Shown piece by piece: positions 854 through 50,840 of a DNA stretch of 53,343 bases (positions are counted from its first letter, which is position 1; the number at the start of each line of letters is the position of its first letter). Source of the stretch: Janibacter anophelis NBRC 107843 (GTDB taxonomy: Bacteria; Actinomycetota; Actinomycetes; Actinomycetales; Dermatophilaceae); assembly GCF_001570945.1 (NCBI RefSeq), contig NZ_BCSQ01000021.1, positions 1 through 53,343 on the forward strand, in the 5' to 3' direction. The position numbers were made by a program, and so were the translations under genes. The notes under the pieces are model-generated. The model made no database searches, had not been told where the DNA came from, and saw only the letters and a list, made by a program, of their open reading frames with translations.

Positions 854-1963
854 ATGATCCACTGGCGCATCGGCACGGTCCGCGAGGTGACGAGCTCCCG
901 GGCGGGCGCCGTGCGGCTGCGCGTCGACGTCGACGGCACCGACACGCCGGCCCTCGCCCTGACCGACCTCGTCGGCACGCCACAGGTCGGCGACACGGTC
1001 CTGCTCAACGCCTCGGCCCTGCGCCGACGGCTCGGCACGGGCGGGCACGCGCTCGTCGTCGCCGACGCCACCCGACTGCCGGACGACCCGGCCGACGCGC
1101 CCGGCCACATCGTCAAGGCGCGCTACACGCCACTGCAGCAGATGGTCCTGGCGCTCGAGGAGCAGGAGTCGCCGCACCACGACGCGATGCGCGAGCACCC
1201 CGACATCGCCGCCGGCGACCTGCGCCGCATGCCCGTCGTCGTCGCGGAGCTGCACTCCGCCCTGCCCGCGGTCCTCGCGGGGGTGCGCGCGGTCGCGCCG
1301 CAGGCGCGCGTCGGCTACGTCATGACCGACTCGGCGTCCCTCCCCTTCGCCCTCTCCGACAGCGCCGCGCGCCTCGTCGAGGCCGGGTGGCTGGACACGA
1401 CGATCACGGCCGGGCAGGCCTTCGGCGGCGAGCACGAGGCGATCACGGTGCACTCCGCGCTGCTCGCGGCCCGGCACGTCCTCGGCTGCGACGTGGTGGT
1501 CGTCGCGCAGGGGCCGGGCAATGCGGGTTCGTCGACGACGTGGGGCTGGTCCGGGTTGTCGACCGGGGACGTGCTCAACGCCGTGCACGTCCTGCGCGGT
1601 CACGGCATCGCGGTGCCGCGCGTCTCCGGAAGCGATCCCCGCCCCCGCCACCGGGGCCTGTCACACCACACGAGCACGGTGCTCTCACGCGCCCTGCTCG
1701 GCGAGGCCGACGTCGTCGTGCCCGACAGCCCCCACGAGCCGTGGCCGCTCGTGCGCGAGCAGCTCCTGGCGGCCATCGCCGCGTCCGCCGGTTCCCCGCA
1801 CCCGGTGACCTGTCCCGTCGACGGCGTGGCCGCGGACCTCGCGGCCTCGCCGGTCCCCCTGTCGAGCATGGGCCGGTCCGCGCAGGAGGACGCGACCCCC
1901 TTCGTCACCGCCGCCCTCGCGGGCCGCCACGCGGCGTCCCTCCTGGCCCTCACCCAGGCCTGA
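854..1963 (+). CDS. DUF3866 family protein of unknown function
   Basis: A 369-residue protein matching the DUF3866 family of actinobacteria, for which I know no established function. It has no signal peptide or membrane helix, so it is probably cytosolic. It begins with a small beta-rich segment (MIHWRIGTVREV). Later a glycine-rich stretch QGPGNAGSSTTWGWSG (about residues 219-234) and the His/Arg-rich SDPRPRHRGLSHHTSTV look like an active or binding site. The ATG at 854 is chosen over upstream in-frame starts because a -10 box sits 7 nt before it. It is the only plus-strand gene between pafB and the FKBP genes, so it interrupts the Pup locus. The function remains unassigned. Confidence 0.75.
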   Translation: MIHWRIGTVREVTSSRAGAVRLRVDVDGTDTPALALTDLVGTPQVGDTVLLNASALRRRLGTGGHALVVADATRLPDDPADAPGHIVKARYTPLQQMVLALEEQESPHHDAMREHPDIAAGDLRRMPVVVAELHSALPAVLAGVRAVAPQARVGYVMTDSASLPFALSDSAARLVEAGWLDTTITAGQAFGGEHEAITVHSALLAARHVLGCDVVVVAQGPGNAGSSTTWGWSGLSTGDVLNAVHVLRGHGIAVPRVSGSDPRPRHRGLSHHTSTVLSRALLGEADVVVPDSPHEPWPLVREQLLAAIAASAGSPHPVTCPVDGVAADLAASPVPLSSMGRSAQEDATPFVTAALAGRHAASLLALTQA

Positions 1964-1970
1964 CAGACGC

Positions 1971-2074
1971 GCATCTCCCCGGGCAAGTGCAACCTCTCGA
2001 CGTCAAGGATCTGCATCTCCCCGGGGAAATGCAGACCTGAGCCCGCATCTCCCCGGGGAGATGCGGGCTCAGGT
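1971..2074. repeat. Cluster of three SmaI-core palindromes between convergent genes
   Basis: Three copies of a 20-bp palindromic core of the form GCATCTCCCCGGGGARATGC lie at 1971-1990 (degenerate), 2013-2032 and 2045-2064. The last is the centre of a perfect 40-bp palindrome (2035-2074). The cluster fills the gap between the convergent DUF3866 and FKBP genes. It shares its core with the larger array at 20837-21031. As RNA each copy would form a strong hairpin on either strand, consistent with a bidirectional terminator, but no U-tract follows. Confidence 0.85.
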
Positions 2075-2099
2075 GGGTACCGCTGGGGCGAAGGGGGCG

Positions 2100-2486: not shown

Positions 2487-2524
2487 GTGCGTCTCCTGGG
2501 GTCAGATGGTCGGGTCGGGCGTCT

Positions 2525-2556
2525 CGAGGCTCGTCGCTGGCGCTCCTCGCACCTCG
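2525..2556. repeat. Imperfect inverted repeat, REP-like
   Basis: A GTCTCGAGGCTCGTCGCTGG-type sequence with outer arms CGAGG/CCTCG lies between the two FKBP genes. It resembles short dispersed repeats common in high-GC actinobacteria, but only this copy is visible in the window. Confidence 0.35.
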
Positions 2557-5090: not shown

Positions 5091-5783
5091 TCCGTCGTCG
5101 CGAAGGGGGCCGGTGATCCGCCGGAAGCACCGCCGGGTGCGGTGGCGCTCCAGGACGGCCATCTCGAGGGCCCCGTCGGGCAGCAGATCACCGGGCTCGC
5201 CCCCTTCGTCGGGAAGGGAGAGGACGTCCACCGCCAGGGCATGGGCGTCCCGCAGGTCCATGCCCGGGCGCCAGCGCTCGGCGAGGATCTCGTTGAGACG
5301 GGCACTGTCGCCACCGACGGCGACCCAGCCCTGCTCGTCGGCGACCGACCCGTCGTAGGCCAACCGGTAGATCCGGTCGTCGGCGACGACGTGACCGACC
5401 TCGGCGACGACGATCTCGACCTCGTAGGGCTTCTGGTCCTGGGTGAAGACCGTGCCGAGCGTCTGGGCGTAGGCATTGGCCAGCGCACGCGCGGTGACGT
5501 CGGAGCGGTCGTAGGAGTAGCCGCGCAGGTCGGCGTAGCGGATGCCGGCGACACGGAGGTTCTCGAACTCGTTGTACTTGCCGACGCCGGCGAAGGCGAT
5601 GCGGTCGTAGATCTCGCTGATCTTGTTGAGCGAGCGACTGCTCGGGTTGTCGGCGACGAGGAGGATCCCCTCGTCGTAGCCGAGGACGACGACGCTGCGT
5701 CCGCGGGCGATGCCGGCCCGGGCGAAGTCGGCCCGGTCGGCCATGACCTGCTCGGGAGAGACGTAGAAGGGGGGTTGCGTCAC
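5088..5783 (-). CDS. prcA: 20S proteasome alpha subunit
   Basis: A 231-residue alpha subunit forming the outer, gate-bearing rings of the actinobacterial 20S core. The N-terminal gating segment [23 protein letters not shown] and the core [19 protein letters not shown] match the family. It lacks a propeptide and the catalytic N-terminal threonine, as expected for an alpha subunit. The start GTG 5781-5783 overlaps the prcB stop by four bases (GTGA), which implies translational coupling and equal production of the two subunits. The C-terminus is Arg-rich ([13 protein letters not shown]). Confidence 0.97.
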
Positions 5784-6830: not shown

Positions 6831-8327
6831 CTATGCCCCGAGCGCCGCCACGAGGTCGTCGACGTCGCCGGCCGCGACGAGGTGCTCGCTCGCCTCGCGC
6901 CCGTGGGCGGTCGGGTCGAGCAGCGACACGCGGGCGACCCGCCCGGCCCGCGGCAGGCGCAGCAGCAGCGAGTCCCACGAGGCGGACACGACGTGCTCGC
7001 CGAAGGCCTCGAGGACCCGGCCGCGCAGCCAGGCGCGGGTGTCGGCCGGTGGCGTCGCGACGGCGGCACGCACCTCCTCGTGGGTGGTGAGGCGGGTGAG
7101 CCGGCCGGCGGCCTCGAGCTTGTGGAAGATCCCCTTGGCGGGGCGCACGTCGGACCACTGGATGTCGATGGCGCGCAGACGGTGGTCGTCCCAGGCAAGC
7201 CCGTCGCGGTCCCGGTAGCGCTGCAGCAGAGCGAGCTTCGCGACCCAGTCGATGTCGGCGGCGGCGTCCATCGGGTCGCCCGCGAGCAGTCCGAGGAGCC
7301 GCTCCCAGTGGGCGAGGACCTCGTCGGTGGCGGGGTCGCTCCCTTCGCGCTCGACGAAGGCGGTCGCCATCTCGAGGTACTCGGTGAGGATCTGCACCGC
7401 CGTGAGCTCGCGGCCGTCGCGCAGCCGTACCGTCGCCCGACAGGTGGGGTCGTGGGAGATCACCCGCAGGGACTCGACGGGGTGCAGGATCGTCAGGTCG
7501 CGGTCGATCGCGCCGGCCTCGATGAGGCGCAGGACGAGGGAGGTCGAGCCGACCTTGACGAGGTTGGCCACGTCCGCCTGGTTGGTGTCGCCGATGATCA
7601 CGTGCAGCCGGCGCCAGACGTCGGGGTCGGCGTGCGGCTCGTCGCGGGTGTTGATGATCGGACGCTTGAAGGTGGTCTCCAGCCCCACCTCGGCCTCGAA
7701 GAAGTCACTGCGCGAGGCGATCTGGTACCCGGCGCGCTCGCTCTCCTGCCCGATGCCGACCCGCCCCGCACCGCACATCACCTGGCGCGCGACGAAGAAG
7801 GGGGTCAGCTGCGACACGATCCGCTCGAAGGGGGTGGACCGCGCGACGAGGTAGTTCTCGTGGGTGCCGTAGGAGGCACCCTTGCCGTCGGTGTTGTTCT
7901 TGTAGAGGTTGATCCCCGGCTCGCGGGCGGCGAGGCGCTCGACGACCTCACGCATGACGAGCTCGCCCGCCCGGTCCCAGACGATCGCGTCCCGCGGGGA
8001 GGTGACCTCCGGCGAGGAGTACTCGGGGTGCGCGTGGTCGACGTACAGGCGTGCGCCGTTGGCGAGTACGACATTGGCCAGGGTCGGGTCCTCGACGTCG
8101 GTCAGCTGGGAGATGTCGGCCCGTGCCCGCGGCATCTCGAAGCCGCGCGCGTCGACCAGCGGGTGCTCGTCGCTGTAGTCCCAGGCCCCGTGCCCGGCCC
8201 GCAGCCCGTGCGCCCGCGCGTAGGCCGTGACGACCTCGCCCGACGCGACCATCGGGTTGGCCCACGGCTGCCCCGGCACGGCGATCCCGTACTCCGTCTC
8301 GATGCCCATGACCCGACGCACGCTCAT
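6831..8327 (-). CDS. dop: Deamidase of Pup / depupylase
   Basis: A 498-residue paralogue of PafA that deamidates the C-terminal Gln of Pup and also removes Pup from targets. The opening MGIETEYG (7-14) carries the conserved metal-site glutamate. A longer insertion after the first strands (SDEHPLVDARGFEMPRARAD region, about 53-75) fits the Dop-specific loop absent from PafA. NTDGKGASYGTHENYLV and [20 protein letters not shown] are shared with PafA. It is the first gene of dop-pup-prcB-prcA. A TAGGGT -10 box 6 nt before the ATG indicates a leaderless operon promoter. Confidence 0.97.
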   Translation of the reverse strand: MSVRRVMGIETEYGIAVPGQPWANPMVASGEVVTAYARAHGLRAGHGAWDYSDEHPLVDARGFEMPRARADISQLTDVEDPTLANVVLANGARLYVDHAHPEYSSPEVTSPRDAIVWDRAGELVMREVVERLAAREPGINLYKNNTDGKGASYGTHENYLVARSTPFERIVSQLTPFFVARQVMCGAGRVGIGQESERAGYQIASRSDFFEAEVGLETTFKRPIINTRDEPHADPDVWRRLHVIIGDTNQADVANLVKVGSTSLVLRLIEAGAIDRDLTILHPVESLRVISHDPTCRATVRLRDGRELTAVQILTEYLEMATAFVEREGSDPATDEVLAHWERLLGLLAGDPMDAAADIDWVAKLALLQRYRDRDGLAWDDHRLRAIDIQWSDVRPAKGIFHKLEAAGRLTRLTTHEEVRAAVATPPADTRAWLRGRVLEAFGEHVVSASWDSLLLRLPRAGRVARVSLLDPTAHGREASEHLVAAGDVDDLVAALGA

Positions 8328-9031: not shown

Positions 9032-10000
9032 GTGACTTCGACGTGGATGCCGTGGCGGACGCGGGTGCTGGGCTGGTTGACCCGCAAGGGGGTCCCGGCC
9101 GAGGAGATGACGGCGGCGCAGCTGTCCCGGATGCGCGCCAGCATCCCGATGCGGGCGCCGTACACGTGGTTCTTCGGTCGCCCCGAGCGCGGCGTGACCT
9201 CCCAGACCCGGCGGATCCTCGCCCGCGACGGTCACGAGATCAAGATCCGGGTCCACCGCCCCGAGGCCGAGGGGCCGCTGCCCCTGCTCATGCACTTCCA
9301 CGGCGGCGGCTTCGTCCTCGGTCACATGGGCGTCTACGACCCGCTGTGCACGCAGATCGCCGCGCAGGCGCGGGTCGTCGTGGTCACGGTCGCCTATCGC
9401 ATGGCCCCCGAGCACCGCGCTCCCCTGGCCGCCCACGACTGCCTCGACGCCACCCGCTGGGCCATCGAGCACGCGGCCGAGATCGGGGCACGCACCGATG
9501 CCGTCGGGGTCACCGGCGACTCGGCAGGTGGCAACCTCGCCGCTGTCGTGGCCCAGACCCTGCGCGACGAGGGCTTCGCCGGCCTGCGCCATCAGGCCCT
9601 CGTCTACCCCGCGCCGGACCTCTCCGACCGCGAGACCGAGGACCTCCAGCTGCTCACGCAGCGCTACCCCGTCCTCACGCCCGACATGCTGCGCTCCTTC
9701 CGCAGCCTCTACCTCGGCGAGGAGGGCGACGACCGCGACCCGATCGTCTCCCCCGCCTTCGGCGACCTCACCGGGCTGCCGCCGGCGCTCGTGCAGACGG
9801 CGGAGGTCGACCCCCTTCGTCCTGACGGTGATGCCTACGCCGAGGCGCTGCGGGAGGCCGGGGTCGAGGTCCGCCACACGACCTACCGTGGTGCTCCGCA
9901 CGGCTACCAGACCTTCCCCGGGTTGGCCCCGGCGGCCGCGCCCGCCCTCGAAGAGCTCATCGGCGAGATCGCCCACCACCTGCACGAGGAGCACCCGTGA
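9032..10000 (+). CDS. Alpha/beta hydrolase, HSL-type esterase/lipase (first of tandem pair)
   Basis: A 322-residue hydrolase of the hormone-sensitive-lipase family, acting on short-chain esters. The oxyanion-hole motif HFHGGGF (His about 90), the nucleophile elbow GDSAGGN (Ser about 162) and the late APHGYQTF (His about 290) make a full catalytic set with an Asp near EVDPLRPDGD. The start GTG at 9032 gives VTSTWMPWRTRV; the upstream extension lacks homology. Its stop overlaps the GTG of the next gene by four bases. The two proteins are clearly paralogous, so a tandem duplication is likely. There is no signal peptide, so it is probably cytoplasmic. Confidence 0.88.
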   Translation: MTSTWMPWRTRVLGWLTRKGVPAEEMTAAQLSRMRASIPMRAPYTWFFGRPERGVTSQTRRILARDGHEIKIRVHRPEAEGPLPLLMHFHGGGFVLGHMGVYDPLCTQIAAQARVVVVTVAYRMAPEHRAPLAAHDCLDATRWAIEHAAEIGARTDAVGVTGDSAGGNLAAVVAQTLRDEGFAGLRHQALVYPAPDLSDRETEDLQLLTQRYPVLTPDMLRSFRSLYLGEEGDDRDPIVSPAFGDLTGLPPALVQTAEVDPLRPDGDAYAEALREAGVEVRHTTYRGAPHGYQTFPGLAPAAAPALEELIGEIAHHLHEEHP

Positions 10001-11001
10001 AGCGCCCCTACCCCGGCCTGCCGCCGCTCGTCGCGGCCCTGACGACCTTCCTCGACAACATCGGTCGGGTCTCGATCGTCGACGCGACGCTCGAGGACAT
10101 CCGGGCGGCCCGCGCCAAGGTCTACCCGACGTCCGCCCCCTTCGCCTGGATCACCGGGCGCGTGCCCGCAGACATGACGATCGACGACGGCAGCGCACCG
10201 GTGCGCGACGGCGCGAGCATCCCCCTTCGCTGGTACACGCCGGGCGGACGAAGGGAGGACCGCCCCCTCCTCGTCTACCTCCACGGTGGTGGCTGGGTGC
10301 AGGGGTCGACCCGGATGTACGACCCGCTGTGCGCCCACCTGGCGGCCGAGCTCGACGCCGTGGTCGTGAGCGTCGACTACCGCATGGCGCCCGAGCACCG
10401 GGCCCCGACGGCGACCCACGACGCGATCGACGTCGTCCGGTGGCTGCACGAGCACGCCGACCACGAGGTCGACCGCGACCGCATCGGCCTGTGCGGCGAC
10501 TCCGCCGGCGGCAACCTGTCGGCGATCGTCGCCCAGCAGCTGCGCGACCTGCGGACGGCGGCCGGTGAGCCGGTCATCCGCCACCAGGCCCTGATCTACC
10601 CGGCGACCGACCTGACGATGGCCTCGCCGTCGATCCGGGAGCACTCCGAGGGGGCGATCCTCACGGAGGCGAAGATCATCGCCTTCCGCGCGCACTACAT
10701 CGGCGAGGCCGACGACGCCGTCGGCTACGCCGACCCGATCGTCTCCCCGCTCTTCGGCGACGTCACCGGGGTCGCGCCGGCGCTGGTGCAGACCGCCGAC
10801 CTCGACCCAATCCGCGACGACGGGCTGCGCTACGCCGACGCCCTGCGGGCTGCCGGCGTCGAGGTGCGGGTCACCAACTACCTCGGGCTGCCGCACGGCT
10901 TCGCGAGCTTCCCCGGGGTGGCCCGCAGCGGCACGCAGGCACGCCACGAGCTCGTCACCGAGATCCGACGCCACCTCGTCGAGGGCGGTCGCGGTGCGTG
11001 A
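9997..11001 (+). CDS. Alpha/beta hydrolase, HSL-type esterase/lipase (second of tandem pair)
   Basis: A 334-residue paralogue of the preceding esterase. It has YLHGGGWVQGS (about 94-104), GDSAGGNLSAIVAQQL (Ser about 169), DLDPIRDDG (Asp) and LPHGFASFPG (His). The shared segments YRMAPEHRAP and DPIVSP and the same ending show common descent with its neighbour. Start GTG 9997 overlaps the previous stop by GTGA and the gene overlaps the next one by 8 bp, so all three are probably one transcript. The substrate is unknown; keeping two copies suggests different specificities. Confidence 0.88.
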   Translation: MKRPYPGLPPLVAALTTFLDNIGRVSIVDATLEDIRAARAKVYPTSAPFAWITGRVPADMTIDDGSAPVRDGASIPLRWYTPGGRREDRPLLVYLHGGGWVQGSTRMYDPLCAHLAAELDAVVVSVDYRMAPEHRAPTATHDAIDVVRWLHEHADHEVDRDRIGLCGDSAGGNLSAIVAQQLRDLRTAAGEPVIRHQALIYPATDLTMASPSIREHSEGAILTEAKIIAFRAHYIGEADDAVGYADPIVSPLFGDVTGVAPALVQTADLDPIRDDGLRYADALRAAGVEVRVTNYLGLPHGFASFPGVARSGTQARHELVTEIRRHLVEGGRGA

Positions 11002-12366: not shown

Positions 12367-14025
12367 CTAGAGGTACTGCCCGGTCCGCGTGCCGGTGTCG
12401 ATCGAGCGGCCGGGCTCCGCGGCGCCGGACTTGCCGCCGATGAGCGTGCGGATGTAGACGATCCGCTCGCCCTTCTTGCCCGAGATGCGCGCCCAGTCGT
12501 CGGGGTTCGTCGTGTTGGGCAGGTCCTCATTTTCCTTGAACTCCGCGATGCACGCGTCGAGCAGGTGACCGACCCGCAGGCCCTCGGCGCCGGTCGTGAT
12601 GAGGTCCTTGATCGCGGCCTTCTTCGCCCGGTCGACGATGTTCTGGATCATCGCGCCGGAGTTGAAGTCCTTGAAGTAGAGGATCTCCTTGTCGCCGCCC
12701 TGGTAGGTCACCTCGAGGAACTGGTTGTCGTCGCTCTCGGCGTACATCCGCTCGACGACCGCCTCGATCATCCCCTCGACGGTGGCCTGCCGGTCGCCGT
12801 CGTGCTCCTCGAGGTCCTCGGGGTGCAGGGGCAGCTCGGCGGTGAGGTACTTGCTGAAGATGTCGCGGGCACCCTCGGCGTCGGGGCGCTCGATCTTGAT
12901 CTTCACATCGAGGCGCCCGGGACGCAGGATCGCCGGGTCGATCATGTCCTCGCGGTTGGTCGCGCCGATGACGATGACGTTGTCCAGGCCTTCGACACCG
13001 TCGATCTCCGCGAGCAGCTGCGGGACGATCGTCGTCTCGACGTCGGAGGAGACGCCGGAACCGCGGGTGCGGAAGAGGCTGTCCATCTCGTCGAAGAAGA
13101 CGACGACGGGGGTGCCGTCGCTCGACTTCTCCCGTGCGCGGTGGAAGATCAGCCGGATGTGCCGCTCGGTCTCGCCGACGTACTTGTTGAGCAGCTCCGG
13201 GCCCTTGATGTTGAGGAAGTAGGCGGTCGCGCTGTCCTGCCCGGTCCGCTCGGCGACCTTGCGGGCCAGCGAGGCCGCGACCGCCTTGGCGATCATCGTC
13301 TTGCCGTTGCCGGGCGGGCCGTAGAGGAGCACGCCCTTGGGCGCCTTGAGCTGGTGGCGCTCGTAGAGCTCGGCGTGCAGGTAGGGCAGCTCGACGGCAT
13401 CGCGGATCGCCTCGATCTGCGTGCTGAGGCCACCGATGTCGTCGTAGTCGAGGTCGGGCACCTCCTCGAGGACGAGGTCGGCGACCTCGGCCCGCGGGAT
13501 GCGCTCGACGGCAATGTTGCTGCGCTGGTCGACGAGCACGGCGTCACCGACGCGCACCTGCTTGCCGGTCACCCGGCCGCCGCTGCGCACGACCCGCTCC
13601 TCGTCCTGGCGCATCAGCACGAGGAGGCGGTCGTCGTCGAGGACCTCCTTGACGACGACGACCTCGCCGGCGACGTCCTCGGGGTGCACCGACACGATGT
13701 TCATCGCCTCGTTGAGCCGCACCTCACGGCCGACCCCGAGCTCACCGGTCTCGACCGCCGGGGAGACGGCGACGTGCATCTTGCGGCCGCCGGAGAGGAC
13801 ATCGGCGGTCCCGTCGTCGTTGACGTCGACGACCACGGCATAGGACGAAGGGGGCTGGGCCAGCCGCTCGATCTCCTCCCGGAGGGTGACGATCTGCTGG
13901 CGGGCGTCCTTGAGCGTGCGCACGAGGCGCTCGTTCTGCGAGGCGACGGTCGCCATCTGCGACTTCTGCTGGGTCAGCTTGTCCTGCAGGGCCCGCACGT
14001 CCTGGGGCGTGGGCTCGGTCGTCAT
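12367..14025 (-). CDS. arc: Proteasome-associated AAA+ ATPase Arc/Mpa
   Basis: A 552-residue hexameric ATPase that recognises Pup through N-terminal coiled coils, unfolds pupylated proteins and feeds them to the 20S core. Residues 1-55 form the coiled coil ([25 protein letters not shown]). A tandem OB-fold region follows. The single AAA domain has Walker A GPPGNGKT (about 234-241) and Walker [11 protein letters not shown] (about 305-314). The C-terminus GQYL is the penultimate-tyrosine motif that docks into the alpha ring. The ATG at 14023-14025 has a GAAGGGAG site upstream. It is separated from dop by the esterase and membrane genes and lies 55 bp after trmI. Confidence 0.97.
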
Positions 14026-14080
14026 CGTCGTGCTCCCTTCGGGCCGGGGGTGTCGGCTGCCTCCAGTCTCCCCCTTCGCC

Positions 14081-16225
<2,145 letters not shown>

Positions 16226-16289: not shown

Positions 16290-20005
<3,716 letters not shown>

Positions 20006-20851: not shown

Positions 20852-21031
20852 GGCAATGCAGATTCACGTGCGACCCAGACCGCGCATTGCCCCGGGAAAT
20901 GCGCGGTCAGGTGGCCCCAGAGCGCGCATTTGCCCGGGGAAATGCAGATGTAGGTAGCCCTAGAGCGCGCATTTGCCCGGGGAAATGCAGATGTAGGTGG
21001 CCCTAGAGCGCGCATTTGCCCGGGGTAATGC
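20837..21031. repeat. Five-copy, ~43-bp-periodic palindrome array between convergent genes
   Basis: Cores of the form GCATTTGCCCGGGGAAATGC start at 20840, 20884, 20926, 20969 and 21012, spaced 44, 42, 43 and 43 bp. Each is a near-perfect palindrome around CCCGGG, except the first, which has CTAA in the centre. The segments between copies 3-4 and 4-5 are identical but for one base, so these are tandem units, not CRISPR spacers. The array starts over the nuclease stop codon and ends 5 bp before the stop codon of the convergent HAD gene. It shares its core with 1971-2074. A bidirectional terminator or REP-type element is the simplest reading. Confidence 0.9.
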
Positions 21032-32622: not shown

Positions 32623-33903
32623 ATGCAGCCTCCCGAGGCCGTCACCGTCGACGCGCCCGACCCGCACTCCGAGCCGACCGTGCCCGTGCCCACCGGCTGG
32701 ATCGCCCGGCTCGGACTCGCGGGCGTCGGCATGTGCGCGGGCTGGTTCGGCCCGATCCAGGTCCTGCTCGGCCTGCAGGCCGCGGCCCTCACGCCGGACC
32801 ACAAGGAGGCGACCCTCTCGCTCGTCACCGGCATCGGCGCCGCGATCTCGACGCTGGCCAACCCGCTGGCCGGGGCCTTCAGCGACCGCACGACCTCACG
32901 GTGGGGTCGCCGGGTCCCCTGGGTCGTCGGCGGCACCCTCCTCGGCGCCGTCGGTCTCATCGTGCTCGCAGTCGCCGACTCCGTCCCGCTGATGATCCTC
33001 GGGTGGTGCCTCGTGCAGGCAGGCCTCAACGGCACCCTCGCCGCACTGACCGCAGCCGTGCCCGATCTCGTGCCCGTCGAGCAGCGCGGTCTCGTCAGCG
33101 GGGTCATCGGCATGACCCAGACCCTGGGCATCGTGGTCGGCACGGGTGTCGCCACGCTCGTCGCCGGCATCACCGGCGCCTACCTCGTCCTGGCCGTGCT
33201 CGTCATCGCGGCGGTCACCCCCTTCGTCCTGCGCTCCATGGACCGGCCGCTCCCCCGGGGCCTGCTGCCGACGATGGGCGTCGGCCAGTTCCTCCGCGGC
33301 TTCTGGATCTCGCCGCGGCGGCACCCGGACTTCGCCTGGGCGTGGGCCACCCGCTTCCTCGCGACGATCGCCAACTCGATCTGCACGCTCTACCTGCTCT
33401 TCTTCCTCACCGACGCCGTCCGCGTCGACGATCCCGAGCTCGGGGTCCTCGTCCTGACCCTGCTCTACGCCGTCACCCTCATCGGCTCGGCGATCCTCGC
33501 CGGCATCTGGTCCGACCGGCTCGGTGTGCGCAAGCCCTTCGTCATGTGGTCGGGCATCGTGATGTCCTGTGCCGCAGTCCTGCTCGCCTTCGTCCAGACT
33601 TGGCCGGCCGCCCTCGTCGGCGCCGTCATCCTCGGGCTCGGCTACGGCATCTACCTCGCGGTCGACTTCGCGCTCATCACGCAGGTCCTCCCCCGTGCCG
33701 GCGACCGGGCCCGCGACCTCGGCGTCATCAACATCGCCAATGCCCTGCCGCAGGTCCTCGCGCCGGCGATCGCTGGACCGATCATCACGTGGTTCGCCGA
33801 GCACCACACGCACGCCGCCGGCTACCGCACCCTCTACCTGCTGGCGGCCGCCATCGGCATCGCCGCAGCGCTGCTCATCCGCCGGATCAAGAGCGTCGAC
33901 TAG
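32623..33903 (+). CDS. MFS transporter, probable sugar/glycoside uptake
   Basis: A 426-residue major-facilitator protein with twelve predicted helices. The loop-2 motif is present as GAFSDRTTSRWGRRVPW, a form seen in sugar-type MFS and GPH-like carriers, and a second half-copy as GIWSDRLGVRKPF. It ends 8 bp before the beta-glucosidase gene, so import of a beta-glucoside or disaccharide is the likely job (inference). A leaderless promoter precedes it. Confidence 0.85.
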   Translation: MQPPEAVTVDAPDPHSEPTVPVPTGWIARLGLAGVGMCAGWFGPIQVLLGLQAAALTPDHKEATLSLVTGIGAAISTLANPLAGAFSDRTTSRWGRRVPWVVGGTLLGAVGLIVLAVADSVPLMILGWCLVQAGLNGTLAALTAAVPDLVPVEQRGLVSGVIGMTQTLGIVVGTGVATLVAGITGAYLVLAVLVIAAVTPFVLRSMDRPLPRGLLPTMGVGQFLRGFWISPRRHPDFAWAWATRFLATIANSICTLYLLFFLTDAVRVDDPELGVLVLTLLYAVTLIGSAILAGIWSDRLGVRKPFVMWSGIVMSCAAVLLAFVQTWPAALVGAVILGLGYGIYLAVDFALITQVLPRAGDRARDLGVINIANALPQVLAPAIAGPIITWFAEHHTHAAGYRTLYLLAAAIGIAAALLIRRIKSVD

Positions 33904-33911
33904 GAGATCCC

Positions 33912-35300
33912 ATGCCCCTCCCCCGTGACTTCGTCGTCGGGACGTCCACCGCCGCCTACCAGATCGAAGGGGGCGTGGAGGCCGGTGGCCGTGGCCGCAG
34001 CATCTGGGACGACTTCTGCGACCGCCCCGGCGCCATCCGGGACGGCTCGTCCGGTGCCACCGCCTGCGACAGCCACCGCAGGTGGGACGAGGACGTCGCG
34101 CTGCTGCAGGGACTGGGCGTCGACGCCTACCGCTTCTCGATCGCCTGGCCGCGGATCCAGCCGACGGGGTCGGGCCCGGTCAACGCCGCCGCCGGACTCG
34201 ACTTCTACGACCGCGCGGTGGACGCGTTGTGCGAGGCGGGGGTCGCCCCCTTCGCCACGCTCTACCACTGGGATCTGCCTTCCGCGCTGCAGGCGAAGGG
34301 AGGGTGGATGGTCCGCGAGACCGCCGAGCGCTTCGGCGAGTACGCCGCGGTCGTCGCCGATCGCCTCGCCGACCGCGTCGCGATGTGGATGCCGGTCAAC
34401 GAGCCGGTCGTGGTGACGATCTTCGGCCACGCGGTCGGGATCCACGCGCCCGGCGAGGTGCGCGGCTTCGAGGCGCTCGGTGCGGCGCACCACCTGCTCC
34501 TGGGGCACGGTCTGGCCACCCGCGCGCTGCGGGCCTCCGGCGCCCGTGCCGTCGGGACCGCCAACAACCACACCCCGGTCCGCGCAGCGAGCGACGCCGA
34601 CGAGGACGTCGCCGCCGCAGCCCTCTACGACACGATCCACAACCGGGCCTTCGCCGAGCCGATCCTCCTCGGCGAGTACCCCAACGGCATGGGCGAGGGC
34701 ATGCCCGGCCCGGTCGCCGAGGACCTGGCGGTCATCAGCGAGCCGCTCGACGCGTACGGCGTCAACTACTACAACCCGACGAAGGTGGGCGCTCCCGGCT
34801 CCCCCGCCGTCACCGCCGCACTGGCCACCGGCTCGCGCGACGAGGTGCCCTTCGAGATGCCGGAGGGCATCCCCTTCGCCCTCGTGCCGGTGGAGGCCGA
34901 CGAACGGACCGCCTTCGGCTGGCCGGTCGTGCCCGAGGGCCTGACCGAGCTGCTCGTGCAGCTGCGGGACCAGTACGGCGACGCCCTGCCGCCGGTGTAC
35001 GTCACGGAGTCCGGCTGCTCGACCGACGACGTCGTCGAGGACGGCCAGGTCCACGACGAGGCCCGCATCCGCTACCTCGACACCCACCTCGACGCCGTGG
35101 CCGAGGCGATCGACGCGGGGGTCGACGTGCGAGGGCACTTCGTCTGGTCGCTGCTCGACAACTTCGAGTGGGCCGAGGGCTACACGCAGCGGTTCGGGCT
35201 GGTGCGGGTCGAGTTCGACGACGGGCAGACGCGCACCCCCAAGGACTCGTACGCGTGGTTGCGCGAGCGGATCACGCAGATCCGTCAGGGCCTCGGCTGA
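33912..35300 (+). CDS. GH1 family beta-glucosidase
   Basis: A 462-residue glycoside hydrolase family 1 enzyme, probably cytosolic since there is no signal peptide. It opens FVVGTSTAAYQIEGG, the family N-terminal signature. The acid/base Glu is in MPVNEPVVV (about 163) and the nucleophile Glu in VYVTESGCS (about 367). VWSLLDNFEWAEGYTQRFGLV near the end forms the substrate pocket. ATG 33912 has GGAGATCC immediately upstream and starts 8 bp after the transporter stop. It should cleave imported beta-glucosides such as cellobiose. Confidence 0.95.
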   Translation: MPLPRDFVVGTSTAAYQIEGGVEAGGRGRSIWDDFCDRPGAIRDGSSGATACDSHRRWDEDVALLQGLGVDAYRFSIAWPRIQPTGSGPVNAAAGLDFYDRAVDALCEAGVAPFATLYHWDLPSALQAKGGWMVRETAERFGEYAAVVADRLADRVAMWMPVNEPVVVTIFGHAVGIHAPGEVRGFEALGAAHHLLLGHGLATRALRASGARAVGTANNHTPVRAASDADEDVAAAALYDTIHNRAFAEPILLGEYPNGMGEGMPGPVAEDLAVISEPLDAYGVNYYNPTKVGAPGSPAVTAALATGSRDEVPFEMPEGIPFALVPVEADERTAFGWPVVPEGLTELLVQLRDQYGDALPPVYVTESGCSTDDVVEDGQVHDEARIRYLDTHLDAVAEAIDAGVDVRGHFVWSLLDNFEWAEGYTQRFGLVRVEFDDGQTRTPKDSYAWLRERITQIRQGLG

Positions 35301-38049: not shown

Positions 38050-39342
38050 TCAGGCGCCCTCGAGGATGGCCACGACGCCCTGTCCACCGGCTGCGCAGAT
38101 GGAGATCAGGCCGCGGCTGCCCGGACCCTTGGCGTGCAGCATCTTGGCCAGCGCGGCGACGATGCGACCACCGGTCGCGGCGAAGGGGTGGCCGGCGGCC
38201 AGCGAGGAGCCGTTGACGTTGAGCTTGTCGCGGTCGATCGAGCCGAGCGGGGTGTCGCGGCCGAGCTTCTCGCGGCAGAAGTCCTCGTCCTCCCAGGCCT
38301 TGAGCGTGGAGAGCACGGTGGCGGCGAAGGCCTCGTGGATCTCGTAGTAGTCGAAGTCCTGGAGGGTGAGGCCGTTGCGCTCGAGCATGCGCGGGATGGC
38401 GTAGGCGGGAGCCATGAGCAGGCCCTCGGCGCCGTGGACGTAGTCGACCGCGGCGGCCTGGCCGTCGACGAACCACGCGAGCGGGGTCAGCCCCTGCTCG
38501 GCGGCCCACTCCTCGGAGCCGAGGAGCACGGTGGAGGCGCCGTCGGTCAGGGGCGTGGAGTTGCCGGCGGTCATCGTCGCGTCGTCGCCCTTGCCGAAGA
38601 CCGGCTTGAGCTTGGCGAGCTTTTCCATCGAGGAGTCGGGACGCAGGTTCTGGTCCTTGGACAGACCCATGAAGCTCGTCATGAGGTCGTCCTGGAAGCC
38701 CTCGTCGTAGGCGCGCGCGAGGTTCTTGTGGCTGTTGACCGCGAGCTGGTCCTGGGCCTCACGGGTGATGCCCCACCGCTTGGCGGTGATGGCCATGTGG
38801 TCGCCCATGGACAGGCCGGTGCGCGGCTCGGAGTTGGCCGGCGTGGAGATGCCCAGGTCGGTGGGGCGGATCTTGGCCAGCGCGAGGGCCTGGTTCTTGG
38901 CCCCCTTCGTGCGGTTGACCTTGAGCAGCTTCTTGCGCAGGGACTCGGTGACCGTGATCGGCGCGTCCGAGGCGGTGTCCACGCCGCCGGCGACGCCGGA
39001 GTCGATCTGGCCGAGCTTGATCTTGTTGGACACGAGGATCGCGGCCTCGAGGCCGGTGCCGCAGGCCTGCTGCACGTCGTAGGCGGACGTCGTGGGGGCC
39101 AGGGCGGAGCCGAGGACGGCCTCACGGGTGAGGTTGAAGTCGCGCGAGTGCTTGATGACCGCACCGCCGACGACCTCGTCGATGTGCTTGCCGCCCAGGT
39201 TGTAGCGGGCCACGAGCCCGTCGAGGGCGGCGGTGAACATGTCCTGGTTGGACGCCTCGGCGTAGGGGCCGAACTGGCGGGCGAAGGGGATGCGGTTGCC
39301 ACCGAGGACGGCGGCGCGACGCGGCAGGTTGTTAGCCACCAC
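38050..39342 (-). CDS. Acetyl-CoA C-acetyltransferase (thiolase), FadA2-like
   Basis: A 430-residue thiolase that condenses or cleaves 3-ketoacyl-CoA. The nucleophile is Cys94 in QQACGTGLEA; HEAFAAT carries the active-site His, GHPFAATG the second His region and CAAGGQG the second Cys near the C-terminus. The start is GTG at 39340-39342 (a second GTG follows directly), with GGAGACC upstream. It is the first gene of thiolase-FabG4-MaoC. Its promoter region contains a large inverted repeat shared with the divergent TetR gene, so repression by that TetR is likely. Confidence 0.93.
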   Translation of the reverse strand: MVANNLPRRAAVLGGNRIPFARQFGPYAEASNQDMFTAALDGLVARYNLGGKHIDEVVGGAVIKHSRDFNLTREAVLGSALAPTTSAYDVQQACGTGLEAAILVSNKIKLGQIDSGVAGGVDTASDAPITVTESLRKKLLKVNRTKGAKNQALALAKIRPTDLGISTPANSEPRTGLSMGDHMAITAKRWGITREAQDQLAVNSHKNLARAYDEGFQDDLMTSFMGLSKDQNLRPDSSMEKLAKLKPVFGKGDDATMTAGNSTPLTDGASTVLLGSEEWAAEQGLTPLAWFVDGQAAAVDYVHGAEGLLMAPAYAIPRMLERNGLTLQDFDYYEIHEAFAATVLSTLKAWEDEDFCREKLGRDTPLGSIDRDKLNVNGSSLAAGHPFAATGGRIVAALAKMLHAKGPGSRGLISICAAGGQGVVAILEGA

Positions 39343-40212: not shown

Positions 40213-41586
40213 ATGCCCACCGTCGAGCATCCGAACGTCGCCGCGCTGCGCGACATCCTGCGACTGCACACCGTGGCCGGGCAGGAGGGCGCGGAGTGCG
40301 ACCCCGCTCCCTTCGTCGAGCTGCACCGGGTGCTGCGCGAGCACTTCCCGCTCACCCACGACGTCGGTGAGGTGGTCGACGTGCCGCCGCACGGCCTGCT
40401 CCTGCGGGTCCCGGCCGACCCCGACTCCCCCACCGCGACCGACGACCCGGTCGTCCTCATGGCGCACATGGACATCGTGCCCCTGGGCGACGAGAGCCGG
40501 TGGACCCACCCGCCCCTGGCCGCGGAGGTCGTCGACGGCGTGATCTGGGGTCGCGGGACGCTCGACGACAAGGGCCAGCTCGTCGCCGTCATCGCGGCGA
40601 TGGAGTCGCTCCTGGCCGACGGTCGTCGCCCGGCCCGCGAGGTCTGGCTCTCCTTCGGCAGCGACGAGGAGGTCATGGGCACCTGTGCGCGCAACGCCGT
40701 CGAGATCCTGCGATCGCGAGGCGTCACACCGTGGTTCGTGCTGGACGAAGGGGGTGCCGTCGCCTCCGGCGCCTTCCCCGGCGTGAGCCGACCGATCGGT
40801 GTCATCGGCGTCTCTGAGAAGGGGGTGCTCTCCCTTCGCCTCACCGCGAGTGGGCGGGGCGGGCACGCCTCACGTCCGGCGAAGGGGGGACCCGCCGCCC
40901 GGATCGCGCGGGCGATCCTGCGCCTGGAGCGCCGCCCCTTCCCGGCCCACCTGTCCCCCGCGGCCCTCGAGATGCTGGCGCGGCTGGCACCCCACGTGCC
41001 GCGCCCCCTTCGTCCCGTCGCTGGTCGCGCCCAGCGGCACCCGGGTGCTCTCGCCCGCCTGCTCGTCGCCGCCGGGCCCGAGCCCGCGGCACTGGCGCGC
41101 ACCACCGTCGCGGTGACGACCGTCTCGGGCTCTCCGGCGATCAATGTCAGCCCCACGAGCGTGCACGCCGGGCTCAACTTGCGCATCGCCGTCGGCGAGA
41201 CGACCGCTGAGGCGACCGAGCGGGTGCGGCGCACGGTCGGGGACGACGTGGAGGTCACGGTCATCGACGAGCACGACCCGAGCCCGCTCTCACCGGTCGA
41301 CGACCCCGCCTTCGAGCTGCTCGAGCGCACGATCACCGACGTCTTCCCCGACGCGGTGCCCGTGCCGTACGTCATGTACGCGGCCACGGACTCGCGGCAC
41401 TTCACCGAGATCTGTGCCCGGGTCTACCGCTTCGCGCCGTTCCGGATGAGCGCCGAGCAACGCGAGTCGATCCACAGCTACGACGAGCGCCTCGGGGTCG
41501 ACGACTTCCTCGACGGGATCCGTTGGTACCGCACGCTGCTCGACGGTCTCGACGCGACGACCGCCGCCGCGGAGGTCGGCCGGTGA
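40213..41586 (+). CDS. M20 family carboxypeptidase/aminoacylase, PM20D1/CPS1-like
   Basis: A 457-residue zinc peptidase or N-acyl-amino-acid hydrolase. MAHMDIVPLGDES carries the first ligand His and Asp, WGRGTLDDKGQLV the bridging Asp, SFGSDEEVMG the catalytic Glu pair, and DSRHFTEIC a late His ligand. The dimer domain lies at about 195-330. TEICARVYRFAPFRM and IHSYDERLGVDDF are typical of the CPS1/PM20D1 branch. A leaderless promoter precedes it. Its stop overlaps the next GTG (GTGA), so an exporter or importer is made with it. Confidence 0.9.
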   Translation: MPTVEHPNVAALRDILRLHTVAGQEGAECDPAPFVELHRVLREHFPLTHDVGEVVDVPPHGLLLRVPADPDSPTATDDPVVLMAHMDIVPLGDESRWTHPPLAAEVVDGVIWGRGTLDDKGQLVAVIAAMESLLADGRRPAREVWLSFGSDEEVMGTCARNAVEILRSRGVTPWFVLDEGGAVASGAFPGVSRPIGVIGVSEKGVLSLRLTASGRGGHASRPAKGGPAARIARAILRLERRPFPAHLSPAALEMLARLAPHVPRPLRPVAGRAQRHPGALARLLVAAGPEPAALARTTVAVTTVSGSPAINVSPTSVHAGLNLRIAVGETTAEATERVRRTVGDDVEVTVIDEHDPSPLSPVDDPAFELLERTITDVFPDAVPVPYVMYAATDSRHFTEICARVYRFAPFRMSAEQRESIHSYDERLGVDDFLDGIRWYRTLLDGLDATTAAAEVGR

Positions 41587-47962: not shown

Positions 47963-49081
47963 ATGACCGCCGACCCCGTGTACCTCGACCACAACGCGAC
48001 GACGCCGATCGCCCGCGAGGTCGCCGAGGCGGTGTGGCCGCACCTGACGCAGGACTTCGGCAACCCGTCGAGCGCCTCGGTGCAGGGTCGGCGTGCTCGG
48101 GCGGCGGTCGACCACGCCCGCGAGCAGGTCGCGGCACTCGTCGGTGCCGAGCCGGACGAGATCGTCTTCACCTCGGGTGGGACAGAGGCCAACAACATCG
48201 CGATCCGGGGCGCCGCTCGGCACCTCGCGACCCGCGTGGCCGTCACCTCGTGCGTCGAGCACCCTGCGACGGCTGCGCCCCTGGCGCACCTGCGGGAGCA
48301 CCACGGCTGGCGGGTGCACGAGCTGCCGGTCGACGGCGCGTGCCGGGTCGTGCTGGACGAGATGCCCTCCGGCGCAGTCGGTCTCGGCACGCTGATCCTC
48401 GCGCACAACGAGACAGGTGCGATCCAGCCGGTGCCCGAGCTCGCCGAGCGGGTCCACCGGCTGGGTGGCCTGGTCCACGCCGACGCGGCCCAGGCCGTCG
48501 GCAAGATCCCGGTCGCCGTCGACGACCTCGGTGTCGACCTGCTGTCGATCGCGGGGCACAAGCTCTACGGGCCGAAGGGGGTCGGGGCCCTCTACGTGCG
48601 GCGCGGCACCCGCGTCGCGCCGGTCGTCCTCGGTGCCGGGCAGGAGGGTGGCCTGCGGCCGGGGACGGAGAACGTCGCGCTGATCGTGGGCCTCGGCGTG
48701 GCCGCCGAACTGGCCGCGAAGGTTCTCGCGACCGAGGTCGAACGCCAGTCCGCCCTACGAGAGGCGTTGTGGGACAAGCTCGCCCGTGCCGTGCCGGGAC
48801 TGGTGCGGGTGTCGCCCGAGCAGGCCTGTCTGCCCAACACCCTGATGGTTGCCCTGCCGGGCCGCGTCGGTGCGCACGTCCTCGAGGCGGTCGGCGACGT
48901 GTCAGCCTCGACCGGCAGCGCCTGCCACGCGGGCGTGCACTCCCCCAACGCCGCCCTGCTCGCCATGGGACTCGACGCCGACACCGCGCTCGGTGCGCTC
49001 CGCCTCTCCCTCGGCCGGTCGACGAGCATTGCGGACGTCGAGTCCGCGGCCACCGCACTCGCCCGGGGACTCGGCGGATGA
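47963..49081 (+). CDS. Cysteine desulfurase, NifS/IscS-type
   Basis: A 372-residue PLP enzyme that takes sulfur from cysteine. VYLDHNATTPIAREV opens the family; FTSGGTEANNIAI, VEHPAT and HADAAQAVGKIPV bind PLP, and SIAGHKLYGPKGVGALYV contains the PLP lysine. The sulfur-carrying Cys is in ASTGSACHAGVHSPN. The loop resembles the group-I NifS/IscS enzymes that supply tRNA thiolation or Fe-S assembly. No partner (mnmA, iscU, dnd genes) is visible here. ATG 47963; a CATCAT box lies 6 nt upstream. Confidence 0.93.
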   Translation: MTADPVYLDHNATTPIAREVAEAVWPHLTQDFGNPSSASVQGRRARAAVDHAREQVAALVGAEPDEIVFTSGGTEANNIAIRGAARHLATRVAVTSCVEHPATAAPLAHLREHHGWRVHELPVDGACRVVLDEMPSGAVGLGTLILAHNETGAIQPVPELAERVHRLGGLVHADAAQAVGKIPVAVDDLGVDLLSIAGHKLYGPKGVGALYVRRGTRVAPVVLGAGQEGGLRPGTENVALIVGLGVAAELAAKVLATEVERQSALREALWDKLARAVPGLVRVSPEQACLPNTLMVALPGRVGAHVLEAVGDVSASTGSACHAGVHSPNAALLAMGLDADTALGALRLSLGRSTSIADVESAATALARGLGG

Positions 49082-49728
49082 GCGCGCCCGCATGGCTTGG
49101 CCCGGTGGTGCGGTCCTACCGCATGACGCCGGCCCCCTTCGACATCGCGGTCGCGGTCGTCGTCAGCTTCGCCCCTTGTGCGGCTCTCCTCTCCGAGGGC
49201 GGCCGCGAACGGTGGGCCTGGGCCGGCTTCGGGACCCTCGTCGTCGGCACGCTCGCCGTCGCGTGGATCGTGTGGTCGACCTCCTCGACGCTCCACCTGC
49301 ACGCCCACGGCGTCGCCCTCCGCCGGATCGGGGAGCGCCACGACATCCCCGACGGCTCGATCCACCCCGCGTCGATCGCCACCTACAGCGACATCTCGGG
49401 AGTGGTGTCGGTCGTGAGGCGTGTGGTGCCGCACGACTGGCACATCCACCCGACGTCGACCGGGGCCATCTCCTTCGTCGGTCCGTCGCCGGGTGCCGTC
49501 CGTGGGCCGGGGTTCACCCCGCCTCCTGCTCCGGGTGACGGCTTCGTCCTCTTCGCCTCACGCCGTGCGGAGGAGATCGCGCACGAGCTGCGGGTGGCGC
49601 TCGTCGCCCACGGGGTGCCTCAGCACCTGGCCTGGTGGTCGACGTCCACAGGACCGCTCGAGCCGGGCGGTTTCGTCAGCGCGGCGCGCGACGAGATGCC
49701 CGGCTACCGGGCCGACTGGCGTCCCTGA
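49078..49728 (+). CDS. Hypothetical membrane protein (DUF3093-like?)
   Basis: A 216-residue protein with two N-terminal membrane helices (FDIAVAVVVSFAPCAALL and WAWAGFGTLVVGTLAVAWIVW) and a soluble region containing TLHLHAHGVALRRIGERHDIP, a pattern like small PH-type membrane proteins. I do not recognise the family with confidence. The ATG overlaps the desulfurase stop by ATGA, so the two are coupled. Its last 25 bp overlap the convergent methyltransferase gene. Confidence 0.6.
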   Translation: MSAPAWLGPVVRSYRMTPAPFDIAVAVVVSFAPCAALLSEGGRERWAWAGFGTLVVGTLAVAWIVWSTSSTLHLHAHGVALRRIGERHDIPDGSIHPASIATYSDISGVVSVVRRVVPHDWHIHPTSTGAISFVGPSPGAVRGPGFTPPPAPGDGFVLFASRRAEEIAHELRVALVAHGVPQHLAWWSTSTGPLEPGGFVSAARDEMPGYRADWRP

Positions 49729-50840
49729 GCGACCGTCAGCCGCCACAGCGACGTGACCTCGGCGCGCCGCGCAGCGTGCAGGGCGTCCTTGGCGTCGCTC
49801 GCCCTGCTGTGGCGGGGCACCGTCTCGAGCCGGTCGACGACCTCGAGCCCCGCGTCGTCGATGAGCCCGAGCAGCTCCTCCCGGGCGCGCAGGCCGAGGT
49901 GCTCGGCGAGGTCGGAGATGACCAACCAGCCTTCGCCGCCCGGCTCGAGGTGCTCGGCCAGGCCGGCGAGGAAGCGCCGTAGCATGTCCGAGCCTGGGTC
50001 GTAGATGCCCGCCTCGAGGTCCGAGGTCGGCTCCCCGGGCAGCCACGGCGGGTTGCACACGACGAGGTCGGCCCGACCGTCCGGGTAGAGGTCCGCCTCG
50101 ACGGCCTCGACCCGCTCGCCGACGCCCAGCCGCTGGGCGTTGTCACGGGCACAGGCCACGGCCCGCGGGTTGATGTCGGTGGCGACGACCCGCTCGACGC
50201 CCCGCTGGGCCAGGACGACGGCGAGCACTCCCGTGCCGGTGCCGAGGTCGAAGGCGGTGCTCGGGACCGGCTGCGCCAGAGGCGCATTGGCCACGAGGTC
50301 GATGTACTCGCCGCGGACCGGGGAGAAGACGCCGTAGGCCGGGTGGATGCTCGCCCCGAGCGCCGGGACGTGCACCCCCTTCGTCTGCCACTGGTGGGCA
50401 CCGATGACGCCGAGGAGCTCGCTCAGGGCAACCACCATGGGGCCGGTACCGGGGCCGTAGGCGGCCCAGCAGGCTTCGCGCACGTCGGGGGCCCGCCGCA
50501 GGTCGAGGGACCGGTCGTGCCCCAGCTCGACGACGAGGTGCGCCATGAGGGTGGCCCGCTGGGTGCGCTCGGCCCGGTGCCCGGCGAAGGTCGCCTCGCC
50601 GCGCTGCCGTCGCGGCGCACGGCGCTCGATGCGACGGTCCATGGCCTTCAGCAGCTGGCGGGCGTTGTGGTAGTCACCGCGCCAGAGGATCGCGGTACCG
50701 CGGGAGGCGAGCCGCATCGCCGCGTCGGCCGTCATGGTGTCGTCGGCGACGACGACCCGCCCCGGGACGGGCGCCCCGCTCTCGGAGTGCCACTCGGCCT
50801 CGTGGTCACGGTCGCGCTCGACCCAGCGGATGGTCTCCAT
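49704..50840 (-). CDS. Class I SAM-dependent methyltransferase, HemK/RlmG-like
   Basis: A 378-residue methyltransferase. The C-terminal domain (about 170-378) has the SAM motif FDLGTGTGVLAVVLA, ATDINPRAVACARDNA and the catalytic NPPW in VVCNPPWLPGE, which marks N-methyltransferases acting on amide or amino nitrogens of proteins, RNA or DNA. The N-terminal 165 residues are a second, degenerate domain, as in the RlmG/RsmC layout. The target is unknown. TAGACT lies 9 nt before ATG 50840. The 3' end overlaps the convergent gene by 25 bp. Confidence 0.87.
   Translation of the reverse strand: METIRWVERDRDHEAEWHSESGAPVPGRVVVADDTMTADAAMRLASRGTAILWRGDYHNARQLLKAMDRRIERRAPRRQRGEATFAGHRAERTQRATLMAHLVVELGHDRSLDLRRAPDVREACWAAYGPGTGPMVVALSELLGVIGAHQWQTKGVHVPALGASIHPAYGVFSPVRGEYIDLVANAPLAQPVPSTAFDLGTGTGVLAVVLAQRGVERVVATDINPRAVACARDNAQRLGVGERVEAVEADLYPDGRADLVVCNPPWLPGEPTSDLEAGIYDPGSDMLRRFLAGLAEHLEPGGEGWLVISDLAEHLGLRAREELLGLIDDAGLEVVDRLETVPRHSRASDAKDALHAARRAEVTSLWRLTVAQGRQSAR

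Follow-up and report, generated by a model that had tools for sequence, protein, structure and literature searches.

The 53,343-nucleotide window analysed here, positions 1 to 53,343 of contig NZ_BCSQ01000021.1 of Janibacter anophelis NBRC 107843 (genome G000 below), is punctuated by a nine-letter word, CGAAGGGGG, which occurs 28 times as an exact match when both strands are counted, 13 times forward and 15 times in reverse (Table 1). The original prediction had counted at least 28 copies by eye, and exactly that number is present; its coordinates hold except for one reverse copy placed at 5210, which lies at 5200. Same-composition words occur on average 1.7 times in the window, dinucleotide shuffles of it contain a mean of 0.62 and a maximum of 3, and Markov models of orders 2–4 predict 1.4–1.8. 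Orders 5–7 predict 10–27, figures that we discount because such models are trained on sub-words of CGAAGGGGG itself. Under a low-order model (order 2) its excess is the largest among all 9-mers of the window, where by raw count it ranks third behind two CGA/TCG-rich words, and under an order-3 model it is the top 9-mer excess both in 453 kb of G000 (283 copies vs 12.3 expected) and in 400 kb of a second Janibacter species, G009 (272 vs 13.4). The excess over Markov expectation thus stands, with no model untrained on the word reproducing the count, and the enrichment extends across the genome and the genus. Genome-wide, G000 (3.31 Mb) holds 1,850 copies, about one per 1.8 kb, of which 935 are forward and 915 reverse, so the predicted balance of orientations is borne out; the reversed word, our control, occurs 26 times (15 and 11).

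A G-rich word in a genome of 72% GC could in principle be a by-product of codon usage, base composition or mutational bias, an explanation that we regard as exceedingly improbable. Besides the same-composition words and the reversed control, shuffling of synonymous codons, which preserves proteins and codon usage, leaves 25.6 ± 4.7 copies (largest of 100 shuffles, 38) where the called genes sampled from G000 have 213; the corresponding values are 19.4 vs 183 in G009 and 2.0 vs 20 in G052, a genome of the related genus g38 (g and f numbers label genera and families). The enrichment acts at the level of DNA and not of codons. Its distribution in the family points the same way: all 16 Janibacter genomes (797–1,860 copies) and all 3 from g38 (1,317–1,939) are enriched in CGAAGGGGG, and each of the other 167 of the 186 family genomes has at most 80 copies, none being enriched. 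Reversed control, family counts and synonymous shuffles together refute a chance or codon artefact.

The copies are not confined to one kind of sequence context. In the G000 sample 213 of 283 lie within called genes, where all six codon phases are used, unevenly (114 sense and 99 antisense, 11–62 per phase). Copies not wholly within called genes make up 25% in G000 and 33% in G009, against 14–15% of non-coding DNA, fractions that are approximate because genes were called with a crude script based on codon-position GC. The flanks favour G at −2 (72–74%) and A or G at −1 (75–79%) and are unrelated beyond these positions, and several variants of the word are themselves enriched in G000 (CGAAGGGAG, 78 vs 10.3; CGAAGGGGA, 51 vs 7.3; CGAAGGGGT, 33 vs 10.5). 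Adjacent copies no more than 50 bp apart number 22 in G000 and 26 in G009, about threefold above the roughly 8 expected in each, and among neighbours within 100 bp the inverted order CGAAGGGGG...CCCCCTTCG (plus then minus) accounts for 14 of 27 in G000 and 24 of 33 in G009. Such pairs can form stem-loops and fold strongly; those within 50 bp fall outside called genes in 15 of 21 cases in G009 and 6 of 12 in G000, and we consider them putative, terminator-type structures. Among neighbours more than 100 bp apart, opposite and same orientations stand at 133 vs 102 (p 0.05) and 122 vs 97 (p 0.10), and the spacing as a whole departs from random only in a mild shortage of long gaps.

Strongly folding inverted pairs would also be expected if the word travelled inside a dispersed mobile repeat or a shared terminator stem, and in one family genome, G030, a different word, CGGCATAC, is indeed embedded in a longer shared sequence, making that genome's word a possible dispersed repeat. 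For CGAAGGGGG we judge this account highly improbable. The predominance of copies inside called genes rules out terminator stems as the sole source, and for Janibacter a mobile repeat is contradicted by the same gene location, in all six phases, by the unrelated flanks and by alignments of orthologues, where the positions of copies have diverged mostly through substitution. Across the DNA that aligns between the G000 and G009 genomes (alignments of at least 600 bp and at least 72% identity; 84.5% identity overall), the word is unchanged at 27 of 47 and 35 of 54 sites, the share of identical sites being 33% and 32% for other 9-mers (p 5e-4 and 8e-7) and 28–31% for same-composition words. Unconserved copies are often one substitution away from the word, frequently in a tolerated variant. 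Conservation above background, together with absence from sister genera, contradicts the suggestion that the word is a mutational product.

Related genera carry words of their own. When 40 kb was sampled from each of ten genera of the family, a strong excess of some other word emerged in six of the nine that are not g38: CGGCATAC in G018 (29 vs 3.6 expected), CGTATGCCGC in G030 (15 vs 0.1), CGGCATCC in G041 (42 vs 4.8), CGGCGTAC in G038 (26 vs 4.5) and G054 (32 vs 9.2), and CGTACGCC in G039 (19 vs 3.8; not the top word there); the samples from G025, G029 and G055 held no strongly enriched word. Against synonymous shuffles these dialect words are raised 4.5-fold in G054 and G038, 4.7-fold in G041, 5.6-fold in G095 and 11-fold in G018. 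Differences between genera emerged far more clearly than in the samples once three of the words were counted across the full set of 186 genomes. By hand tally, at least one of four words is present in 137 of 186 genomes and 39 of 53 genera, with 102 genomes over threshold for CGGCATAC, 7 for CGGCATCC, 11 for CGGCGTAC and 19 for CGAAGGGGG, two genomes having two words; the per-strand thresholds (at least 400, 900, 500 and 390, respectively) were picked after the counts were known and are unscaled to genome size, and for CGGCATAC the reversed control is itself raised in some genomes (e.g. G030 and G101). Janibacter has only 3–21 CGGCATAC per strand. CGGCATCC is high in g17, g44 and G041, and CGGCGTAC in g74, g40, g24, g25, part of g3 and G140; G140 belongs to g26, where its sister G141 carries CGGCATAC, and two g44 genomes, G058 and G121, carry CGGCATAC and CGGCATCC together. 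Across 248 genomes of the order, family f19 is where CGGCATMC stands out beyond this family: 16 of its 17 genomes reach 4.5 times the reversed control by our reading of the counts, as does 1 of the other 212.

The same counts yielded several smaller observations. The highest CGGCATMC ratio outside the two families belongs to G249 of family f4, genus g48 (294/308 vs 54/60 for the control, 5.3-fold), with increases of about 3- to 4-fold in several others of g48. Two g2 genomes, G016 and G198, have 662/674 and 548/662 CGGCATCC per strand, above the other ten of that genus, and perhaps hold a young or fading dialect. G103 (g36) and G161 (g79) are without the CGGCATAC word found in most of their congeners and are candidates for recent word loss or dialect switching. 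At locus L199 of G068, in family f10, CGCATCGGCC occurs 10 times in 20 kb vs 0.4 expected, and CGCATCGGC 13 times in genes vs 2.1 in synonymous shuffles; this is a possible further word in another family.

Genes for DNA uptake are present in the genome of the window. In G000 comEA (SLBB and helix-hairpin-helix domains) adjoins comEC (Competence and lactamase-type domains), and there are three TadA-type ATPases, of which class 1 was present in each of the 14 genomes inspected in detail and the third in G000, G009 and G052. Alongside class-2 tadA, the operon carries genes for TadB, TadC, TadE/F/G-like proteins and a Flp-like pilin of 70 residues. TadA, TadB and one TadE/G-like protein were confirmed by Pfam, the small pilin and TadE had no match there, and tadC, the Flp-like pilin and TadE were named by eye. 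Transformation of another actinobacterium, Micrococcus luteus, requires both of its tad clusters together with comEA/EC (PMC4322843). The tadA, tadB, tadC, Flp-like, TadE/F/G-like, comEA and comEC kinds of gene all recur in G000, and class 2 would correspond to M. luteus tad-1, an assignment resting on gene order; that paper contains no mention of an ‘uptake sequence’, a difference from the picture developed below.

In a search of the 186 genomes, class-2 TadA was not found in 12 that are at least 89% complete, their best match being at class-1 level or weaker. Eleven of these (G059, G029, G110, G055, G146, G147, G028, G148, G021, G129 and G128) carry none of the four words, and the twelfth, G052, carries CGAAGGGGG. 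This co-absence gives a Fisher p of 2e-6 by genome and 1e-4 for the six genera wholly without class 2, values that ignore shared descent; with incomplete genomes included, 16 lack a match and 14 of these are wordless (p 1e-7). We designed this test with the word counts already known, and at most 9–10 TadA candidates were scored per genome. In a midpoint-rooted tree of 34 class-2 TadA rows, drawn mostly from the 30 best class-2 matches (G004, G009 and G052 not included), a single clade with 100/99 support unites 14 rows from Janibacter with 2 from g38. The clade adjoins genomes with other words, and the topology fits a single origin of the Janibacter/g38 word, the remaining rows being mostly close relatives. 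A comparison of small pilin-like open reading frames from 24 tad regions across dialects singled out no receptor, and none is named because clade and dialect are confounded and the crude filter missed genes in some loci. As a separate observation, partial class-2 TadA matches with breaks near residues 73–106 or 299–344 were seen in G125, G048, G133, G050, G170, G158, G112, G166, G209, G216, G207 and G213; these may reflect frameshifts, contig ends or real gene decay.

We posit that CGAAGGGGG probably works like a DNA-uptake sequence in a Janibacter dialect, uptake itself being inferred from the genomic pattern. Word length, copy number, symmetry of orientation, dialects, inverted pairs, intergenic excess, conservation, wordless relatives and the link to a pilus together lead us to this proposal, which the original prediction had left unconsidered. 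In the mechanism that we envisage, a surface protein of the competence apparatus would bind CGAAGGGGG preferentially, the candidates being a minor pilin (TadE/F/G) of the Flp/Tad pilus, which seems most likely, or ComEA. Word-bearing fragments would then enter through ComEC and recombine, so that alleles with a chance copy would be imported and fixed more often. Copies would accumulate by point substitution in both orientations, their loss being slow, and the Janibacter word would have replaced a CGGCATAC-type word.

The resemblance to established systems is close at the level of the word. The Neisseriaceae DNA-uptake sequence (DUS) is a short asymmetric word with about 900–3,600 copies per genome and with dialects swapped between genera; inverted DUS pairs are linked to terminators, and five genomes have no obvious DUS (PMC3630211; features of uptake words were also drawn from PMC13020248). 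The Janibacter word shares with AT-DUS and the other ComP-bound dialects its short asymmetric form, copy number, genus-level dialects and inverted pairs. The uptake signal sequence (USS) of Pasteurellaceae, AAGTGCGGT / ACAAGCGGT, likewise has nine letters, two types in one family and high genomic enrichment (PMC12616744), and its receptor is so far only predicted. These points are matched by the nine-letter length, the several types per family and the strong enrichment reported here. USS also has a density comparable to that of CGAAGGGGG and is flanked by AT-rich sequence. The differences are equally clear. Janibacter is a monoderm with a Flp/Tad candidate machine in place of the type IVa pilus of DUS users, and its word is unrelated to DUS; from USS it differs in sequence, organism, envelope and receptor candidates and in having no AT-rich flanks. 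Because words, organisms and probable receptor all differ, the Janibacter system would be convergent with DUS and USS and not a member of either.

Two alternatives would place the reader of the word inside the cell. One, akin to HIP1 or a nucleoid-protein site, has CGAAGGGGG bound or methylated for chromosome organisation, repair or regulation, and we consider it unlikely. The word is abundant, spread genome-wide without any trend in density with distance from oriC in G009 (Spearman −0.14, p 0.57), lineage-specific and conserved, as such a site might be. HIP1, extremely abundant and lineage-specific, is a palindrome, however, which CGAAGGGGG is not, and HIP1 is not known to have a dialect family tied to a pilus. 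Co-absence with the tad operon and the pattern of dialects would go unexplained. Restriction sites, for their part, are usually depleted and not enriched. The nucleoid-protein or modification site offered by the original prediction is a poorer fit than a DNA-uptake sequence. The other alternative, which we hold to be distinctly improbable, is a Chi-like recombination hotspot that regulates a RecBCD-, AddAB- or AdnAB-type nuclease in break repair. Chi words are short and species-specific and differ between lineages, and CGAAGGGGG resembles them in being G-rich, asymmetric (non-palindromic), dense, lineage-specific and conserved. Orientation bias relative to replication is common for Chi, and KOPS or architecture-imparting sequences show a strong strand skew towards ter, but the leading strand of G009 holds 145 of 272 sampled copies (p = 0.30; the genome is complete, its contig begins at dnaA, and the terminus is assumed to lie opposite the origin). 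The lack of bias rules out a polar KOPS- or Chi-type signal, as the original prediction had suspected from the mixed orientations. Close inverted pairs and an intergenic excess would moreover be unexpected of Chi, as would words that differ between close genera and even within g26, and co-absence with a pilus operon has no Chi reason.

Several observations weigh against a DNA-uptake sequence read by the class-2 machinery. The tad link was drawn after the fact and has exceptions. The complete genome G052, with 1,939 copies of CGAAGGGGG, shows no class-2 TadA (the only classes that Pfam recovers there are the two others; best tblastn E 1.2e-56), and G149, 73% complete and rich in CGGCATAC, has no class-2 match. 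In G009, with its 1,860 copies, the class-2 tadA is cut by a restriction island; these three exceptions would require recent loss or another pilus, and G000, G009 and G052 do possess the third TadA-type ATPase. The best class-2 matches of six further word-bearing genomes (G132, G032, G165, G168, G169 and G171) are weak (1e-61 to 1e-90). Conversely, g2, g9, g10, g11, G103 and G161 have class-2 TadA yet none of the four words, a situation like that of the DUS-less Neisseriaceae (PMC3630211), and ComEC is near-universal, wordless genomes included, and so does not discriminate word-bearing from wordless genomes. Inverted pairs of the other family words show no clear excess in small samples. CGAAGGGGG shares little with the family's CGGC[AG]T[AC]C words, whereas DUS dialects share a core. 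Within the window region conservation is 25/56 vs 27.6% (p 0.095), with 7 usable sites only.

The weaker dialect words call for similar caution. Ten further family genomes without a known word yielded no equally strong candidate; CTGCGCGA in G059 came closest (27 vs 5.0, z 8.9), and the sample z of the weaker dialect words (9.2 in G038, 7.1 in G054) is not always far above this value. Tested against synonymous shuffles of genes, CTGCGCGA is raised in G059 (23 vs 6.5, 3.5-fold) and in G052 (40 vs 14.3), and the top word of a sample is often raised 2- to 3.6-fold without being a dialect, another consideration that counts against our proposal; the weaker dialect words therefore rest on genome-wide counts and not on samples. 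G059 may hold another dialect word, CTGCGCGA having been seen in samples only. The word was raised in samples from two genera (L181 and L182 of G059; L151, L152, L281 and L284 of G052).

The restriction–modification island of G009 offers a view of DNA that may have arrived recently. It contains no CGAAGGGGG in 7 kb vs 4.8 expected (p 0.009), and the next 8 kb hold 12 copies, a post hoc comparison of one island. When windows below 68% GC are taken as a proxy for foreign DNA, the density is 0.27 per kb in G000, a depletion, but 0.75 per kb in G009, where such windows are not depleted. The island itself (L283 1–7570) encodes a C5 DNA methylase and two Eco29kI-family nucleases, and tadA is broken after about residue 276.

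Taking the family as a whole, we lean towards a broader proposal, namely a third DNA-uptake-sequence system, in monoderm actinobacteria, that would span most genera of the family and a second family of the order, use at least four words and be read by a Flp/Tad minor pilin or ComEA, an ancestral CGGCATAC-type word having been replaced by the almost unrelated CGAAGGGGG in Janibacter and its sister genus. Neisseriaceae and Pasteurellaceae have been called the only families known to have such uptake words (PMC12616744, October 2025). In the literature searched, without bioRxiv preprints and with few subscription papers, we found no report of an uptake sequence in Actinobacteria or Janibacter and no relevant paper on CGAAGGGGG, CGGCATAC or their complements. 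If the proposal is true, monoderms using another pilus would join the two known families as a third, independent case, and self-DNA tagging would be seen to arise repeatedly, without depending on an outer-membrane secretin. Many actinobacteria would then be predicted to be naturally transformable, experimenters would know which word to add to transforming DNA, many natural dialect switches would become available for studying the co-evolution of receptor and word, and the receptor question would gain a new, directly testable system.

Table 1. Exact copies of CGAAGGGGG in the window. Orthologues are Janibacter sequences in alignments of at least 300 bp within window positions 27,000–54,000.
Feature	Position	Strand	Remarks
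CGAAGGGGG copy	1896..1904	-	exact match; within called gene
CGAAGGGGG copy	2089..2097	+	exact match; outside called genes
CGAAGGGGG copy	5101..5109	+	exact match; first of inverted +- pair, 99 bp apart
CGAAGGGGG copy	5200..5208	-	exact match; second of inverted pair; 5210 in the original prediction
CGAAGGGGG copy	7826..7834	+	exact match
CGAAGGGGG copy	9811..9819	-	exact match
CGAAGGGGG copy	10136..10144	-	exact match
CGAAGGGGG copy	10221..10229	-	exact match
CGAAGGGGG copy	13846..13854	+	exact match
CGAAGGGGG copy	14070..14078	-	exact match; outside called genes
CGAAGGGGG copy	15167..15175	-	exact match
CGAAGGGGG copy	17269..17277	+	exact match
CGAAGGGGG copy	18269..18277	-	exact match
CGAAGGGGG copy	21083..21091	+	exact match
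CGAAGGGGG copy	24754..24762	+	exact match
CGAAGGGGG copy	28719..28727	+	kept in 2/2 aligned orthologues
CGAAGGGGG copy	29211..29219	-	kept in 0/2 aligned orthologues
CGAAGGGGG copy	29484..29492	+	kept in 2/2 aligned orthologues
CGAAGGGGG copy	33218..33226	-	kept in 4/4 aligned orthologues
CGAAGGGGG copy	33965..33973	+	kept in 3/4 aligned orthologues
CGAAGGGGG copy	34246..34254	-	kept in 2/4 aligned orthologues; CGAAGGGAG in other 2
CGAAGGGGG copy	38901..38909	-	kept in 1/12 Janibacter orthologues and in G052 (genus g38)
CGAAGGGGG copy	40746..40754	+	kept in 4/8 aligned orthologues
CGAAGGGGG copy	40880..40888	+	kept in 7/8 aligned orthologues
CGAAGGGGG copy	41004..41012	-	kept in 0/8 aligned orthologues
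CGAAGGGGG copy	48573..48581	+	kept in 0/1 aligned orthologues
CGAAGGGGG copy	49133..49141	-	no aligned orthologue; outside called genes
CGAAGGGGG copy	50375..50383	-	kept in 0/1 aligned orthologues

Beyond the word itself, four Janibacter proteins match the protein encoded at 44993–46678 of the window with 91–96% identity, and none of the 76 further loci retained exceeds 84%, which identifies the window's genus (g1) as Janibacter. A second dispersed family, of palindromes of the form GCAT(T/C)TCCCCGGGGA(A/G)ATGC with variants, is present at 1972–2070 and 20933–20990 of the window and also at L052 and L053; G000 contains 21 and 23 half-matches in 453 kb, sometimes two or three consecutively, and the 14-base palindrome core TTTCCCCGGGGAAA occurs 3 times in G000 and not at all in 400 kb of G009. 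A palindromic repeat around ACCCTAGGGT is in turn particular to G009, where it was seen at 17 places in 400 kb (L031 9734, L032 17288 and L037 3146 among them), some paired about 42 bp apart, with none in 453 kb of G000. These G009 repeats are perhaps species-specific REP-like elements.

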